From Paenibacillus riograndensis SBR5 (GTDB lineage Bacteria > Bacillota > Bacilli > Paenibacillales > Paenibacillaceae), in contig NZ_LN831776.1 of assembly GCF_000981585.1 (NCBI RefSeq), positions 387,001 through 451,000 on the forward strand: a DNA stretch of 64,000 bases. Reading direction: 5' to 3'. Under the pieces are notes generated by a model. It was not told the DNA's origin. It saw only the letters and a program-made list of their open reading frames with translations, and made no database searches. The translations under genes were made by a program, and so were the position numbers. Positions 15,125-19,695 of the stretch are shown in pieces (the first letter of the stretch is position 1; each line of letters starts with the position of its first letter).

Positions 15125-15169
15125 AAAGCGGGATTGGATTCCCCTTACCTTGAGGAAAGGAAGATCATC

Positions 15170-16888
15170 GTGAAGAAAACGGCCGAACAGCTAAATAAAC
15201 ATGAAGCCATAGATCATCAGCGGATGCTGATCCGCAAAATGCAGTCACTCGGGTCCCGCTACAATCCGGAGCTCCGCATGCTTCAGTCGCCGTTCAGCAG
15301 CCCGGGTTATCATACCACGCTGCGGGGTGTAGAATTCATCCATTCCACCCGGGATTCGCTGTCGTATGCACTCGGGCTGCTGGATACAGAGCTTGCCGAG
15401 CATGAGCCGCGGGCCTTCGGGATTATCGCCCAGGTGGTGTCTCTTCAGGATACGGACCGCAGCCGGGATACCTTCGGGATCTGGCCCTGGTTCTATGAAG
15501 AACCGCTGGCACAAATGGCGCCGCCCGACTGGAACTGGGCGGACTTCTGCGGCAGCCGCCTGATTCAGGCCCTCAAGCGCCATGGGAACAGGTTCCCGGA
15601 GGCCCTGCGCAAGGCCGTTGCCGACTCCGTTAGCTATGCCTGTGAGGCCATTATCAAGCGGAACGTCGGGCCGGATTACACTAATATTGCAATTCTGGGG
15701 GCCTTCGTCACCAGAATTGCAGGGGAGCAGCTGGAACGCGGGGATTTCGCGGACTATGGGTTGAAGCGTCTGCAGAAGCTGTATGACTATACGATGAAGC
15801 GCGGCGCTTTTCAGGAATATAACAGCCCGGTCTATACGTACATCGCCATCCTGGAGTTATCCAAGCTGCATTCCGAAACCATGGATGACCAGGTGCGCGG
15901 GCTCACCAGAGAGTTGATTGATCTGACCTGGAGGAGTGTGGCGGGCTATTACCACCCGGCGACCGGGCAGTGGTCCGGCCCGCATTCCCGCTCTTATGAG
16001 ACGCTCCTGAATAATCAGAGCAAGGCTTTTTTGCAGGTGGCCACCCGGGGGACAGTGATGTTTTTCGGTTGGGAAGAGCTGCCGTACGAAGAAGAATGGT
16101 ACAAAAGCGGCTTCGAGTGTCCGGCAGCCTGTCTGGAGGCCTTCAGCGTTCCGCGTACACAAGAAATCAGGCAGCTTTATGAAGGCGATGAGACGGACGG
16201 CACCGGCAAATGGGCCGTTACTTATATGACGCCCCGGGTCAGCATCGGATCTTTTACAAATAGTGATCTGTGGAATCAGAGGCGGCCGCTGCTGGTCTAT
16301 GCGGATAACAACGGCCTTCCTGTTTATATGCAGCTCCGGTGCCTGCACGATGGCTATGACTTTTGCTCGGCCCGCTTCAAGTCGAAGCAGGAACAGGGGC
16401 AGGTGCTGTTCGGCATTGACTTCATCACAGATGGAGGGGATACCCATCCCAATCTGGATCTTACGGGCGGCGCAATCGAGGCTGGGGATTTACGGCTGCG
16501 GCTGGAGATCGGAGGCCAGCTCAAGGGAGTGGCTGCCAAGTCTACGGCAGAAGGGGCTTCCATTCGGGTCGGAGAGGCACACTGTGTGCTCACGACATGG
16601 TTTGCGGCGTTTACGGGACACTCAGGTGCGGGCCGCGACTGGACCTGGGAGGTTCATGAGACGGGGGACCGGATTCTGGTGGAGCTGATTCTGTACTCCG
16701 GCCCGCGCAAACGCATAGACCTTCATGCCCTTCAGCAGGCGGCAATGGTTTTTTCTTTGGATATGGAGAAGCCCCCGGGAAGCTCCGGTCCGCAAATAGA
16801 GGTGGCAGAGGGCAAGCTGCGGGTGAGCGCCAGCGGGGAAGAGGCGGAAGCCTTCTCGCTTCGTCTGCGCCCTGGTCAAGCGGAGTAG
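15170..16888 (+). CDS. Uncharacterised carbohydrate-active-type protein, helical N-half and beta-rich C-half
   Basis: A 572-residue protein without signal peptide that I do not recognise. Residues 1-320 are helical with repeated Trp/Tyr-containing segments (GIWPWFYEEPL, DWNWADFCGSRL, GPDYTNIAILGAF, YNSPVYTYIAILEL) like an alpha/alpha toroid; GPHSRSY at 270-276 is a candidate active-site loop. The last 230 residues are beta-strands. This architecture recalls polysaccharide lyases or heparinase-like enzymes, but that is inference. GTG 15170 is chosen because GAGGAAAGG lies nine bases before it; the longer frame from 15134 has no ribosome site. It follows the GH88/105 gene by 45 bases. Confidence 0.7.
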   Translation: MKKTAEQLNKHEAIDHQRMLIRKMQSLGSRYNPELRMLQSPFSSPGYHTTLRGVEFIHSTRDSLSYALGLLDTELAEHEPRAFGIIAQVVSLQDTDRSRDTFGIWPWFYEEPLAQMAPPDWNWADFCGSRLIQALKRHGNRFPEALRKAVADSVSYACEAIIKRNVGPDYTNIAILGAFVTRIAGEQLERGDFADYGLKRLQKLYDYTMKRGAFQEYNSPVYTYIAILELSKLHSETMDDQVRGLTRELIDLTWRSVAGYYHPATGQWSGPHSRSYETLLNNQSKAFLQVATRGTVMFFGWEELPYEEEWYKSGFECPAACLEAFSVPRTQEIRQLYEGDETDGTGKWAVTYMTPRVSIGSFTNSDLWNQRRPLLVYADNNGLPVYMQLRCLHDGYDFCSARFKSKQEQGQVLFGIDFITDGGDTHPNLDLTGGAIEAGDLRLRLEIGGQLKGVAAKSTAEGASIRVGEAHCVLTTWFAAFTGHSGAGRDWTWEVHETGDRILVELILYSGPRKRIDLHALQQAAMVFSLDMEKPPGSSGPQIEVAEGKLRVSASGEEAEAFSLRLRPGQAE

Positions 16889-17025: not shown

Positions 17026-18297
17026 TTACTGAGAGATCACAACAAAATCGCTTTTGAACCGCTCATAATCGGCGGCCCGGCATTCCAGCTTCAGGCGTGT
17101 GCCCTGTTCTTCATAGCTGACCTCCTGCACATCGGCGTGGTCATTGAAGTAGGAAACTACGCTGCCGCGGTCGAACGGCACCAGTATTTCGCACCGGATA
17201 TAATCATTGAAGACATGCTGGCGGACCAGGTCAATCAGCTCGGCGATTCCGCTTTTCTGCTTAGCGGAGAGAGTGACAGTATTCTCCTTTACTACAGGAT
17301 AAGGCAACTCTGTCAGGTCAGCTTTGTTATAAGCCTTAATGGCCGGGATTCCGTCAGCGCCCAGAGCCTTCAGGGTTTCCTCCGTAACAGCGATATGCTG
17401 GCCCACCTGCGGATCGGAAATGTCGGCTACATGAATCAGCAGGTCAGCCTCGGTAACCTCTTCGAGCGTAGAGCGGAAGGCCTTGACCAGATGATGGGGC
17501 AGCTGGCTGACAAAACCGACCGTGTCGGTCAACAAAAAGGTTTTACGGTCAGGCAGCTCAATGCTGCGCACTGAGGTTTCCAATGTGGCGAACAGCATAT
17601 CCTTGGCCAACACCCCTTTTTGAGACCCGGGGTGGTAGGTTTCCATTATGGTGTTCATTAAGCTGGACTTGCCGGTATTGGTATAACCGACGAGACAGAC
17701 TACGGGCACCTCGTTTTTGCGCCGCTGCTTGCGCTGGACCTGCCGCCGGGCTACTTGAGTCTGCAGCTCCAGCTGCAGTGCCGTGATGCGTTCCTCGATT
17801 CGGCGCCGGTCCAGCTCCAGCTTGGTTTCCCCGGCACCGCGGTTTTTCAGTCCCGCTCCGCCGCCTTGTCTGCCGAGGGACTCGCGCATTCCGGCCAGCC
17901 GGGGGAGCATGTACTGCAGCTGTGCCACCTCCACCTGGAGCTGGGCCTCCTTCGTTTTGGCACGTTCGGCAAAAATATTCAGAATCAGGACGGTCCGGTC
18001 AATGACCTGACGGTCCAGCGCCGATTCCAGATTGCGGATCTGGGAAGGGGAGAGCTCATCATTAAAAATAACAATGGGCGCCTCCAGCGCTTCCAACAGG
18101 GCTTCCAGCTCCCCGATTTTGCCTGTACCGATATAATGCGCCGGGTTAATGCGGCTGGATTTCTGGCTCAGCTCACCGACCACCTCAAGCTCACAGGCCG
18201 CCGCCAGATTGCGCAGCTCTTCCATGGAATAAGCGAAATCCTTGTCATTCTGCAGCTGAACACCGACAATCACTGCCTTTTGATGTACAGTTTCCAT
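17026..18297 (-). CDS. hflX: Ribosome-associated GTPase HflX
   Basis: A 423-residue protein with the N-terminal HflX domain (about 1-120), coiled linker with 'GGGAGLKNRGAGETKLELDRRRI' (family signature), and a G domain: P-loop GYTNTGKSS near residue 205, G3 DTVGF, G4 NKADL. HflX splits stalled 70S ribosomes after heat or antibiotic stress. The ATG follows GTGGAGG. The 445-base leader has a consensus promoter, a 12-codon leader ORF and a terminator 35 bases before the start, suggesting control by attenuation. It ends facing the GH operon with a shared terminator. Confidence 0.93.
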   Translation of the reverse strand: METVHQKAVIVGVQLQNDKDFAYSMEELRNLAAACELEVVGELSQKSSRINPAHYIGTGKIGELEALLEALEAPIVIFNDELSPSQIRNLESALDRQVIDRTVLILNIFAERAKTKEAQLQVEVAQLQYMLPRLAGMRESLGRQGGGAGLKNRGAGETKLELDRRRIEERITALQLELQTQVARRQVQRKQRRKNEVPVVCLVGYTNTGKSSLMNTIMETYHPGSQKGVLAKDMLFATLETSVRSIELPDRKTFLLTDTVGFVSQLPHHLVKAFRSTLEEVTEADLLIHVADISDPQVGQHIAVTEETLKALGADGIPAIKAYNKADLTELPYPVVKENTVTLSAKQKSGIAELIDLVRQHVFNDYIRCEILVPFDRGSVVSYFNDHADVQEVSYEEQGTRLKLECRAADYERFKSDFVVISQ

Positions 18298-18330
18298 ATA
18301 TTAATCAACCTCCACGAGTAAAATTGGACA

Positions 18331-18358
18331 TAAAAAAGCACAGGCCGTCTGCCTGTGC
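18331..18358 (-). terminator. Terminator in the hflX leader (probable attenuator)
   Basis: On the minus strand GCACAGGC (18358-18351), loop AGACG, GCCTGTGC (18345-18338), then six T (18337-18332). It lies about 35 bases upstream of the hflX ATG and downstream of the hflX promoter, so it ends leader transcripts rather than a separate gene. Confidence 0.85.
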
Positions 18359-18366
18359 TAACAGTA

Positions 18367-18615
18367 TCAATAGAGGACAACAGAATAGGGCCACCGGAGG
18401 AATCTACATTCCCCAAGTCCCTTCTTCGGCATTTCCATAGCAACAATGAATGTATGCAAAAAAATACGGCGGCCCGGCAGAACAGCAAGCTGCTGCACCT
18501 GTCTGCGGGGCGGTTCATTGTGATTGCCTGATGGAGCTGCAAGTATTCCTAAAGGCGATGCCGGCGTGACGATCTGTCCGCCGGACGTTTGGTTCAAGCT
18601 GTGGGCTGCCTTCAA
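18367..18615 (-). other. Possible 82-codon frame within the hflX leader
   Basis: A TTG-started frame ends nine bases before the attenuator stem. It lacks a recognisable ribosome site and any known domain. It may be only an accident of a structured leader, but translation up to the terminator would influence folding, so it is recorded here. Confidence 0.25.
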
Positions 18616-18677
18616 AAATAGATAGACCTATCCTGAGTCCTCTGCACGGGGCAGAGCTTTAGCGCTATAAAATTAGC

Positions 18678-18716
18678 TTAGCCGCGTAAAGTGCGAATCC
18701 GGATATAGTCTATCAC
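18678..18716 (-). CDS. Leader peptide of hflX (MIDYIRIRTLRG), candidate drug-sensing stall peptide
   Basis: A 12-codon ORF starting GTG at 18716, six bases after a strong GGAGGG, and ending TAA at 18678. The peptide, V/M-I-D-Y-I-R-I-R-T-L-R-G, contains Arg-Ile-Arg. Established knowledge: Arg/Lys-X-Arg/Lys is the motif at which macrolide-bound ribosomes stall on ErmDL-type leaders. It is the first start site of the transcript from the 18749/18772 promoter. Function in attenuation of hflX is inferred; TTG 18722 in frame is an alternative start (14 codons). Confidence 0.55.
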   Translation of the reverse strand: MIDYIRIRTLRG

Positions 18717-18748
18717 ACGCAACCCTCCGTTCTTCAAAAGTTACGTTG

Positions 18749-18777
18749 ATTCTAACACATCTGCCGGAAGCTGGCAA
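18749..18777 (-). promoter_or_regulatory. Sigma-A promoter of the hflX leader
   Basis: On the minus strand TTGCCA (18777-18772), a 17-base spacer and TAGAAT (18754-18749). Predicted start of transcription is about 18742, giving a leader of roughly 445 bases. Confidence 0.75.
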
Positions 18778-18900: not shown

Positions 18901-19695
18901 GTGCCTTATTTAACAACTAACACATTAACAAGCAGACCCACCAGGGGGCTGGGCACCATTAGCCAGGTAATCATAAAAACGGTCAACAACGGATCGTCCA
19001 AAGCTGTGGTGTATATAACAGGCCTGAATAATGATGTAACCCCCGAAACGCTGTTTGCCCAGGAATTATTTGAAGTGAATTACCGGGAGGTAGTAACCAG
19101 AATCTATAATATTACCCAGACTTATTTTCAGTTCAATGCCGTATACTCCCAGGAGCAGACGCAGATCCAGATTTTCCTGGTAGATAGTGCAGGTGTCTTG
19201 TCGCAGGTTGCGCTGGAGCAGCTTGAGGTCAGCCGGATCACCTCGGAATTCCGGGAAAATATCGCTGTCACTGCGTCCGACTTTGCGCTTATCAGCTTCC
19301 GCAGAAACACTGCGGTCGTAATTCCGGAGGCTGTGGCTGCTGAAATCAAGCCGGACAGCCTGGAAATTCTGGCCTCCACGCCGATCCGGTACAAAATCGT
19401 GGGCGGTGGAACCGTGAATGGCACCTTTGTCAACTTCCCTACGCCTACTACGGCGATCTCTGCAACCGAAACTGCACTGCAAGTGAATTACACCTGCACG
19501 GCCGTGACAGGCGGAAGGGTGATCACCCAAGGCATCGGTTCCGGCATAGCCGGTGCTTATCAGAATGTAGCCGCCAATTTGACTAGTCAGCAGCTTTTAT
19601 ACAATCTGACGGATGAAATCATCACACTGGTCGTCAGCTCGCTTGCAGGTTCAGACAATCTGGCAGCGGTCTTCAGAATGTCCGAGGAATGGTGA
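18901..19695 (+). CDS. Hypothetical spore-surface-type protein
   Basis: A 264-residue protein without signal peptide or known catalytic motif. It is beta-rich, with hydrophobic/polar alternation and many Thr/Ser/Val. The first 110 residues share a pattern with the N-terminal domain of the collagen-like protein at 1153: a V-x-I-x-x-x-N-x-x-S segment, then A-x-V-x-I-x-G, then a Phe-rich strand. This suggests both carry the same anchoring or assembly module. GTG start with AGAAGGAGG eight bases upstream. The CATACGATA element upstream implies late mother-cell expression. Function is unknown; spore coat or exosporium is inferred. Confidence 0.65.
   Translation: MPYLTTNTLTSRPTRGLGTISQVIIKTVNNGSSKAVVYITGLNNDVTPETLFAQELFEVNYREVVTRIYNITQTYFQFNAVYSQEQTQIQIFLVDSAGVLSQVALEQLEVSRITSEFRENIAVTASDFALISFRRNTAVVIPEAVAAEIKPDSLEILASTPIRYKIVGGGTVNGTFVNFPTPTTAISATETALQVNYTCTAVTGGRVITQGIGSGIAGAYQNVAANLTSQQLLYNLTDEIITLVVSSLAGSDNLAAVFRMSEEW

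Follow-up and report, generated by a model that had tools for sequence, protein, structure and literature searches.

A putative ribosome-sensing attenuator ahead of an HflXr-type gene in Paenibacillus riograndensis SBR5 and its likely kinship with macrolide-resistance leaders

The leader that precedes one of the hflX genes of Paenibacillus riograndensis SBR5 most likely is a ribosome-sensing transcription attenuator that would turn the gene on when a drug stalls translation, a reading to which we assign a probability of about 0.85. It is supported by the conservation of a short leader ORF (uORF) and of its RxR motif, by a downstream gene of the HflXr clade, by an intrinsic terminator, and by homology to the proven rli80-hflXr attenuator of Listeria.

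The window, that is, the whole stretch of 64,000 nucleotides analysed (contig NZ_LN831776.1, positions 387,001 to 451,000), carries on its minus strand, in this order, a promoter, a Shine-Dalgarno (SD) sequence and the leader ORF, then structured sequence down to about 18603, variable sequence, the terminator and hflX. The promoter TTGCCA-17-TAGAAT has an extended -10 (TG) and spans 18749..18777 (-35 at 18777-18772, -10 at 18754-18749); a similar promoter-like arrangement, TGCCA ... TGTGnTAAAAT, is seen in many relatives with an Arg-Ile-Arg (RIR) leader peptide. The SD GGAGGG (18723..18728) is followed by the leader ORF MIDYIRIRTLRG (18678..18716), whose 12 codons and stop read M I D Y I R I R T L R G from a GTG at 18716 to a TAA at 18680-18678, with the putative RIR arrest motif at codons 6-8. 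The terminator AGCACAGGC-agacg-GCCTGTGCT and its U tract (18331..18359, stem 18359-18337) lie about 320 nt beyond the uORF, and hflX (17026..18297) begins 419 nt from the uORF start. This layout of promoter, GGAGGG, 12-codon ORF, terminator and hflX had been proposed by an earlier sequence-only reading, and it was borne out at these positions. A pattern scan counted 4 terminator-like sites against 4.1 in shuffles and 5 promoter-like sites against 2.1; the scan alone is no evidence for the element, and conservation is. A scan of the window with Rfam 15 returned no family at its gathering score, and the adjoining ORFs at 18901-19695 (+, 264 aa) and 15134-16888 (+, 584 aa) gave no Pfam match at E 0.001.

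The gene product, 423 aa long, is HflX by TIGR03156 (433.5 bits), and a second full hflX lies about 4 Mb away in the same genome. In a midpoint-rooted tree of 23 proteins, in which the long branch of the second copy calls for caution, the window copy grouped with Listeria HflXr (fork 100/99), apart from the genome's second copy and from the canonical-type HflX of Bacillus, Cytobacillus and Exiguobacterium. By this phylogeny the window gene is the HflXr-type copy and the other the canonical hflX. The idea that the element also precedes the canonical hflX was rejected, since the covariance model found no match there (L001). The paralog is present at E <= 1e-100 in 70 of 100 same-genus genomes, our own included. 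In genome G052 (L078), an intact leader is followed by an hflX that falls into two frames and gave two matches at 98% identity.

Seventy hflX-paralog leaders of the same genus, the window's own among them, were cut out for comparison. Under a strict rule a uORF with [RK]xR is present in 67; the three misses are L075, which still reads KFR, L073, which reads HFR with His for the first basic residue, and L066, which is frame-broken. Most of the 70 encode MID[YF]IR[IV]RTLRG or a near form. Among the 18 most distant leaders (L060-L077; 61-65% protein identity), 16 carry KFR forms such as MINIKFRFFTLCR and MNDKFRYYTLCH, the remaining two being L066 and L073; L066 has kept the RNA module despite its frame-broken KFR-type uORF. 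Within the 12-codon RIR class, synonymous changes make up 164 of 273 pairwise differing codons, or 0.60 against 0.26 expected from random single changes, the pairs (34 leaders, 12 distinct sequences) not being independent; the second Arg alternates between CGN and AGA. The leader peptide looks to be under selection, and the claim of an Arg-Ile-Arg leader peptide held up when hflX loci were aligned, with ORF and RxR conserved and codons changing synonymously.

The 5' part of these leaders also shares a fold. Applied to an alignment of 36 of the 70 leaders (A1, near-duplicates left out), in which the GGAGG of the SD is invariant, RNAalifold closed the fold by pairing GGGT of the SD with RCCC further downstream. 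It also paired the uORF start-codon region with a later CAT-like stretch and TCC with GGA, and placed a helix P1 at the uORF end and a hairpin P2, CTCTGC/GCAGAG. In the window, P0 (18603..18725) comprises GGGTTGC 18725-18719 paired with GCAGCCC 18609-18603, the uORF's TATCC 18705-18701 with GGATA 18633-18629 and, by eye only, ATAGA 18713-18709 with TCTAT 18626-18622; its cores GGGT/RCCC and TCC/GGA come from RNAalifold and pair counts, and their extensions from inspection by eye. P1 joins the uORF end to the following TAGCGC stretch (18661..18686), and P2 is the local hairpin CTCTGC-cccgt-GCAGAG (18640..18656), both placed by RNAalifold and pair counts. P2 is paired in 99.5% of cells of A1 and in 96.8% of those of A3, an alignment of 95 hits (94 distinct) before many gene families; P1 is the weakest part, with 55-93% of cells paired over the wider family. 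The A1 structure exceeded all 500 shuffles on five measures and was ahead of slid versions on four, a slide of -2 having more cells changed on both sides (15 vs 12), and A1 alone offers modest covariation evidence. In A3, which was fitted to the model and so leans towards it, both-side changes occur in 21 of 22 pairs, and the score was 0.375 against 0.214 in shuffles (0/500) and at most 0.127 in slid versions. The comparison suggests that the SD and first ORF codons pair with the antiterminator's other end, making P0 a candidate anti-antiterminator.

The predicted antiterminator consists of a strand S2 (18620..18656), which contains TGCCCCGTGC (18653-18644), and a target S3 (18348..18389), made up of CCTATTCTG, GTCCTCT and GCACaGGCAGA, both assigned by duplex prediction and a swap test. 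The last of these S3 parts is the terminator 5' arm and loop, and S3 was likewise seen by eye to end in the 5' arm and loop in the 70 leaders. The sequence-only reading had guessed that TGCCCCGTGC acts as the antiterminator; it picked the right word, which pairs towards the terminator arm, but the word appears to be only part of a much longer helix, a long-range antiterminator of about 30 base pairs ending in the terminator 5' arm. The S2-S3 duplex was predicted in 70/70 leaders, with E from -32 to -47 and a mean z of -3.8 (60 mononucleotide shuffles of S2 per leader); z was weaker than -2 in 10 of the 70. RIR-class leaders pair GAGGAC/GTCCTC and CAGGATAGG/CCTATTCTG, and KFR-class leaders GCGAACGG/CCGTTCGC instead, a different sequence that is again complementary within its class. 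Among 34 non-redundant leaders, cognate S2-S3 pairs averaged -38.6 kcal/mol vs -33.5 for swapped pairs, a fit reached by none of 20,000 permutations overall, by 3 within the RIR class and by 100 within the KFR class. A chance word match for TGCCCCGTGC was rejected by this cognate-versus-swapped test. The specificity is statistical, not absolute: a strand's own target was the very best for only 3 of the 34, and S2 often fits the targets of other loci equally. A second terminator-like hairpin lies mid-leader, between module and antiterminator target, in L060-L062, L072-L076, L134, L138, L161, L181 and L231 (for example AGAAAGGCAG...CTGCCTTTCTTTTTT); no clean equivalent was seen in the window's leader.

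By these comparisons S2 and S3 co-evolve between loci, which argues against direct occlusion in the manner of the tlrB gene of B. subtilis, where the stalled ribosome itself, timed by a NusG pause and without an antiterminator, would block the terminator or an SD-sequestering structure. Attenuation of tlrB is proven, and its leader peptide resembles the VIIDFIRIR of L036 and L037 (PMC6851288, for tlrB), but a terminator some 320 nt past the uORF is out of a ribosome's reach, and we consider such a mechanism improbable for the window.

We further modelled the effect of a stalled ribosome by masking an assumed footprint that took in the first P-site base with 14 nt on its 5' side and 17 nt on its 3' side. 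In the equilibrium fold, a ribosome at RxR raised S2-S3 pairing by at least 0.2 in 45 of 66 leaders; pairing stood at 0.2 or more in 50/66 leaders when stalled and in 20/66 when the ribosome sat at the stop codon, and below 0.1 in 58/66 when free. Stalling at RxR brought the terminator itself below 0.5 in just 13/66. When the transcript was ended at the terminator loop (67 leaders), the 5' arm paired with S2 at a median of 0.10 without a ribosome, 0.79 with it stalled and 0.53 with it at the stop codon; values above 0.5 occurred in 29, 60 and 35 leaders, respectively. The window's leader in this half-made state was paired at 0.65 free, 0.82 stalled and 0.37 at the stop codon; at equilibrium its S2-S3 pairing rose from 0.42 to 0.50 on masking and the terminator still formed (P 1.00). 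Alternative folds, as anticipated by the sequence-only reading, thus shift in most leaders upon stalling, but only weakly in the window's own, and the modelling speaks fairly well for a ribosome-driven switch in the family and weakly for one in this leader. Because the terminator persists at equilibrium and many leaders are paired without a ribosome, the model needs kinetics.

This weak switch in the window's own fold is what would speak for a constitutive leader, in which hflX is not drug-regulated and the conserved stretch is used otherwise, for example as a pause site or small RNA. Such a leader seems very improbable, given the homology to rli80, which is proven to be regulated (PMC6310831), and the association of the RNA family with resistance genes.

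For the attenuator we infer the following course. Without drug, ribosomes would traverse the leader ORF quickly, the SD and first codons would pair with the GGATAGGTC...GCAGCCC stretch as anti-antiterminator, P2 would hold the rest of S2, and the terminator would halt transcription before hflX. A macrolide-type drug would stall the ribosome at Arg-Ile-Arg (codons 6-8) and so cover the uORF half of the anti-antiterminator; the freed S2 could then zip with the late-made S3, from GGATAGG towards CTCTGCC, and capture the terminator 5' arm before the 3' arm is made, so that hflX is transcribed and HflXr may split stalled ribosomes. The inducer is likely a macrolide. As the VIIDFIRIR form of L036 and L037 resembles the tlrB leader peptide MIIQFIRYR, which stalls with tylosin and not with erythromycin (PMC6851288), 16-membered macrolides are a fair first guess by analogy.

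Among the closest known systems is the rli80-hflXr leader of Listeria monocytogenes (L330). Two covariance models were used, R1 built from A1 and R2 from 84 hits, the E-values of R2 being rough; R2 matched L330 at 53.6 bits (E 1.2e-10) and, in B. licheniformis, the leader of ermD (L326) at 80.4 bits, neither having been in its training set. Like the window, the Listeria locus has an HflXr-clade gene, in an organism with another hflX besides, and, by covariance model, the same SD and AACGGGATTGGTCT module. It too has a short RxR uORF, MRYIRLRFPKNLCN, of 14 aa with RLR (PMC6310831); the distance from uORF start to gene is about 254 nt there and 419 in the window. No terminator-like hairpin in L330 passed our rule, and its S2-S3 pairing is thus unscored. 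The window shares with the rli80 type an RxR uORF after a strong SD, a terminator between uORF and gene, an HflXr gene with a separate canonical hflX and, judging from comparative sequence with weak folding of its own leader, an antiterminator and an anti-antiterminator that exclude each other, with the uORF forming part of the second. On the Listeria side, a further hallmark is induction by lincomycin and erythromycin, lost on change of the uORF start codon. These likenesses indicate an rli80-type attenuator before hflXr, the same kind in a new lineage. Least probable of all is a riboswitch whose highly conserved, structured 5' module binds a drug or other ligand directly with an incidental uORF, as the uORF is conserved at the peptide level and, for rli80, stalled ribosomes were argued over direct binding (PMC6310831).

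The ermD/ermK leaders of B. licheniformis resemble the window in RNA family, in an RxR leader peptide and in a long-range pairing that overlaps the terminator arm, and differ in gene and peptide (RLRFPTLN). ermK is reportedly controlled by transcriptional attenuation. The Erm(K)L peptide is quoted as MTHSMRLRFPTLNQ in PMC4335068, and the same RNA family includes Erm genes with a MTHSMRLRFPTLNQ leader peptide (L301, L309). B. subtilis tlrB/yxjB, like the window, has an FIRxR leader peptide, and a macrolide-stalled ribosome acts there on transcription termination; its RxR lies at the very C terminus, whereas the window's RIR is followed by TLRG, and a NusG pause, an SD-sequestering hairpin and the stalled ribosome's own prevention of termination are described for it (PMC6851288). 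The mef(E)/mel and mef(A)/msr(D) systems combine an RLR leader peptide with an anti-attenuator of distant repeats (PMC4335068); the covariance model gave no significant match (best E > 0.2) for the Streptococcus mef(A)/msr(D) leader (L328, MTASMRLR), so that this attenuator apparently follows a similar logic with a different RNA. Nor was there a significant match (best E > 0.2) at hflX in three plasmid records, from Lysinibacillus, Latilactobacillus and Paraclostridium. The notion that any RxR leader is a family member was rejected, mef(A)/msr(D) and the Paraclostridium hflX leader having RLR and no match. The family is therefore defined by the RNA and not by RxR alone, and the element is absent from some HflXr-clade genes. 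In genus g64, the hflX leaders inspected have no RxR uORF of the window's type.

R1 matched 92 of the 100 genomes of the genus and, at order level, 255 of 392 genomes in 30 of 49 genera. From the genus hits outside hflX, 40 regions were taken; one R1 hit at a contig end (G038), which is also outside the 70 hflX leaders, was left out. The first recognised gene was a macrolide-resistance homologue in 39 of the 40: RlmA/TlrB type in 10, Erm, Mph and macrolide esterase in 9 each (one esterase split) and Msr ABC-F in 2. Among the ten of RlmA/TlrB type, one stands behind an inserted TnpB and one is a fragment before an ABC-F; no recognisable resistance gene followed the element in the remaining region (L141). 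In an NCBIfam scan of 20 proteins, Erm, Msr and two of three esterases exceeded general-family cut-offs, and Mph and RlmA types matched below strict ones. L149 has an IS200/IS605 TnpB gene between element and RlmA gene.

Among 398 Bacilli genomes searched at class level, R2 matched 125, spread over 52 of the 145 genera. Part of the order- and class-level matches was examined, gene classification at order level beyond the genus covering L163 only. Of 74 class-level loci (73 distinct places, L156 and L233 being the same), 67 matched reference Erm, Mph, esterase, ABC-F, RlmA or HflX, with three ABC-F at 25-28% identity; the other seven are an HflX, an Mph, three LmrB-type, one Mef-type and one general MFS protein (L193), the LmrB- and Mef-type proteins scoring under curated drug-specific cut-offs. 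A search of named genomes with the exact pattern gave 66 loci, 58 with these resistance genes and 3 more with Mef-type genes; five (L264, L269, L272, L280, L285) had too little DNA to judge. Outside Bacilli, six genomes of a 299-genome phylum sample matched at E <= 1e-4 (seven loci), with ABC-F, Mph or HflX behind the element in five and no downstream gene identified in two (L338 and L339, other classes). On plasmids, 23 records were similar to one ABC-F leader, for example before mef(F)-msr(G) in Macrococcoides canis and before a predicted ermD in B. licheniformis; the window leader as query found nothing there. NZ_CP030101.1 is a 2.9-Mb Listeria replicon filed as a plasmid, and the 'Stenotrophomonas' plasmids CP065518.1 and CP031730.1, whose names may be wrong, carry the element with a Lysinibacillus-like hflX.

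Long-range pairing recurs in this wider set. With a fixed 480-nt target, 53 of the 72 loci that could be scored had a best duplex overlapping the terminator 5' arm, vs 309 of 1440 shuffled strands; z was < -2 in 47/72, and 19/72 showed no overlap. The 72 remain from 80 hand-picked hits, namely 77 of the 95 A3 hits plus L325, L326 and L330, after eight without a terminator-like hairpin (L330 included) were dropped; the 18 A3 hits left out by hand were near duplicates, loci with the gene unassigned at that time and a few others. Esterase leaders had weak z scores (mean -0.9), yet overlapped the arm in 6/7. Several esterase leaders that match the RNA model (L121, L125, L129, L130, L142, L144-L147) have odd uORFs without RxR, either MLIFFPVSL or a three-codon ORF such as MLN. 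Two tandem copies of the element, about 420 nt apart, precede erm in L112-L115 and L151, and in L112, L114, L115 and L151 a macrolide-esterase homologue comes next. In L112, L113 and L114 the 480 nt that follow the second copy held no terminator-like hairpin.

Homologues from eight gene families are found behind the switch: hflXr, erm, mph, macrolide esterase, msr ABC-F, rlmA/tlrB, mef and lmrB-type efflux. We think it probable that rli80-hflXr, ermD/K and many undescribed attenuators have a single modular RNA switch as their common ancestor, which has passed among at least eight unrelated families of resistance genes across Firmicutes and plasmids, its long-range antiterminator re-evolving in complementary pairs and its arrest peptide being tuned per gene, which would amount to a class-wide RNA-encoded macrolide regulon.

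The combination had been thought undescribed for this lineage. That stands in part: an RLR uORF before hflX in Bacillales, uORFC-6-1, with covarying structure after the start codon, has been reported, but the main text of that report does not name Paenibacillus (PMC8632094). We compared uORFC-6-1 by its description only; in the window, part of the structure lies before the start codon, as P0 takes in the SD. Drug-induced transcription attenuators are a known kind, to which the window element is an added member. What is less expected is that many macrolide attenuators look like one homologous RNA module, and a search of open-licence PMC papers found no description of them as such. If this is true, one covariance model would be enough to detect, by the leader alone, genes for inducible resistance to macrolides, lincosamides and streptogramins, as well as uncharacterised genes behind the same switch, and peptide-to-drug specificity could be tested by comparing naturally occurring leader peptides on one shared RNA scaffold. 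For Paenibacillus, it would mean that hflX-based ribosome rescue is probably drug-induced and not housekeeping.
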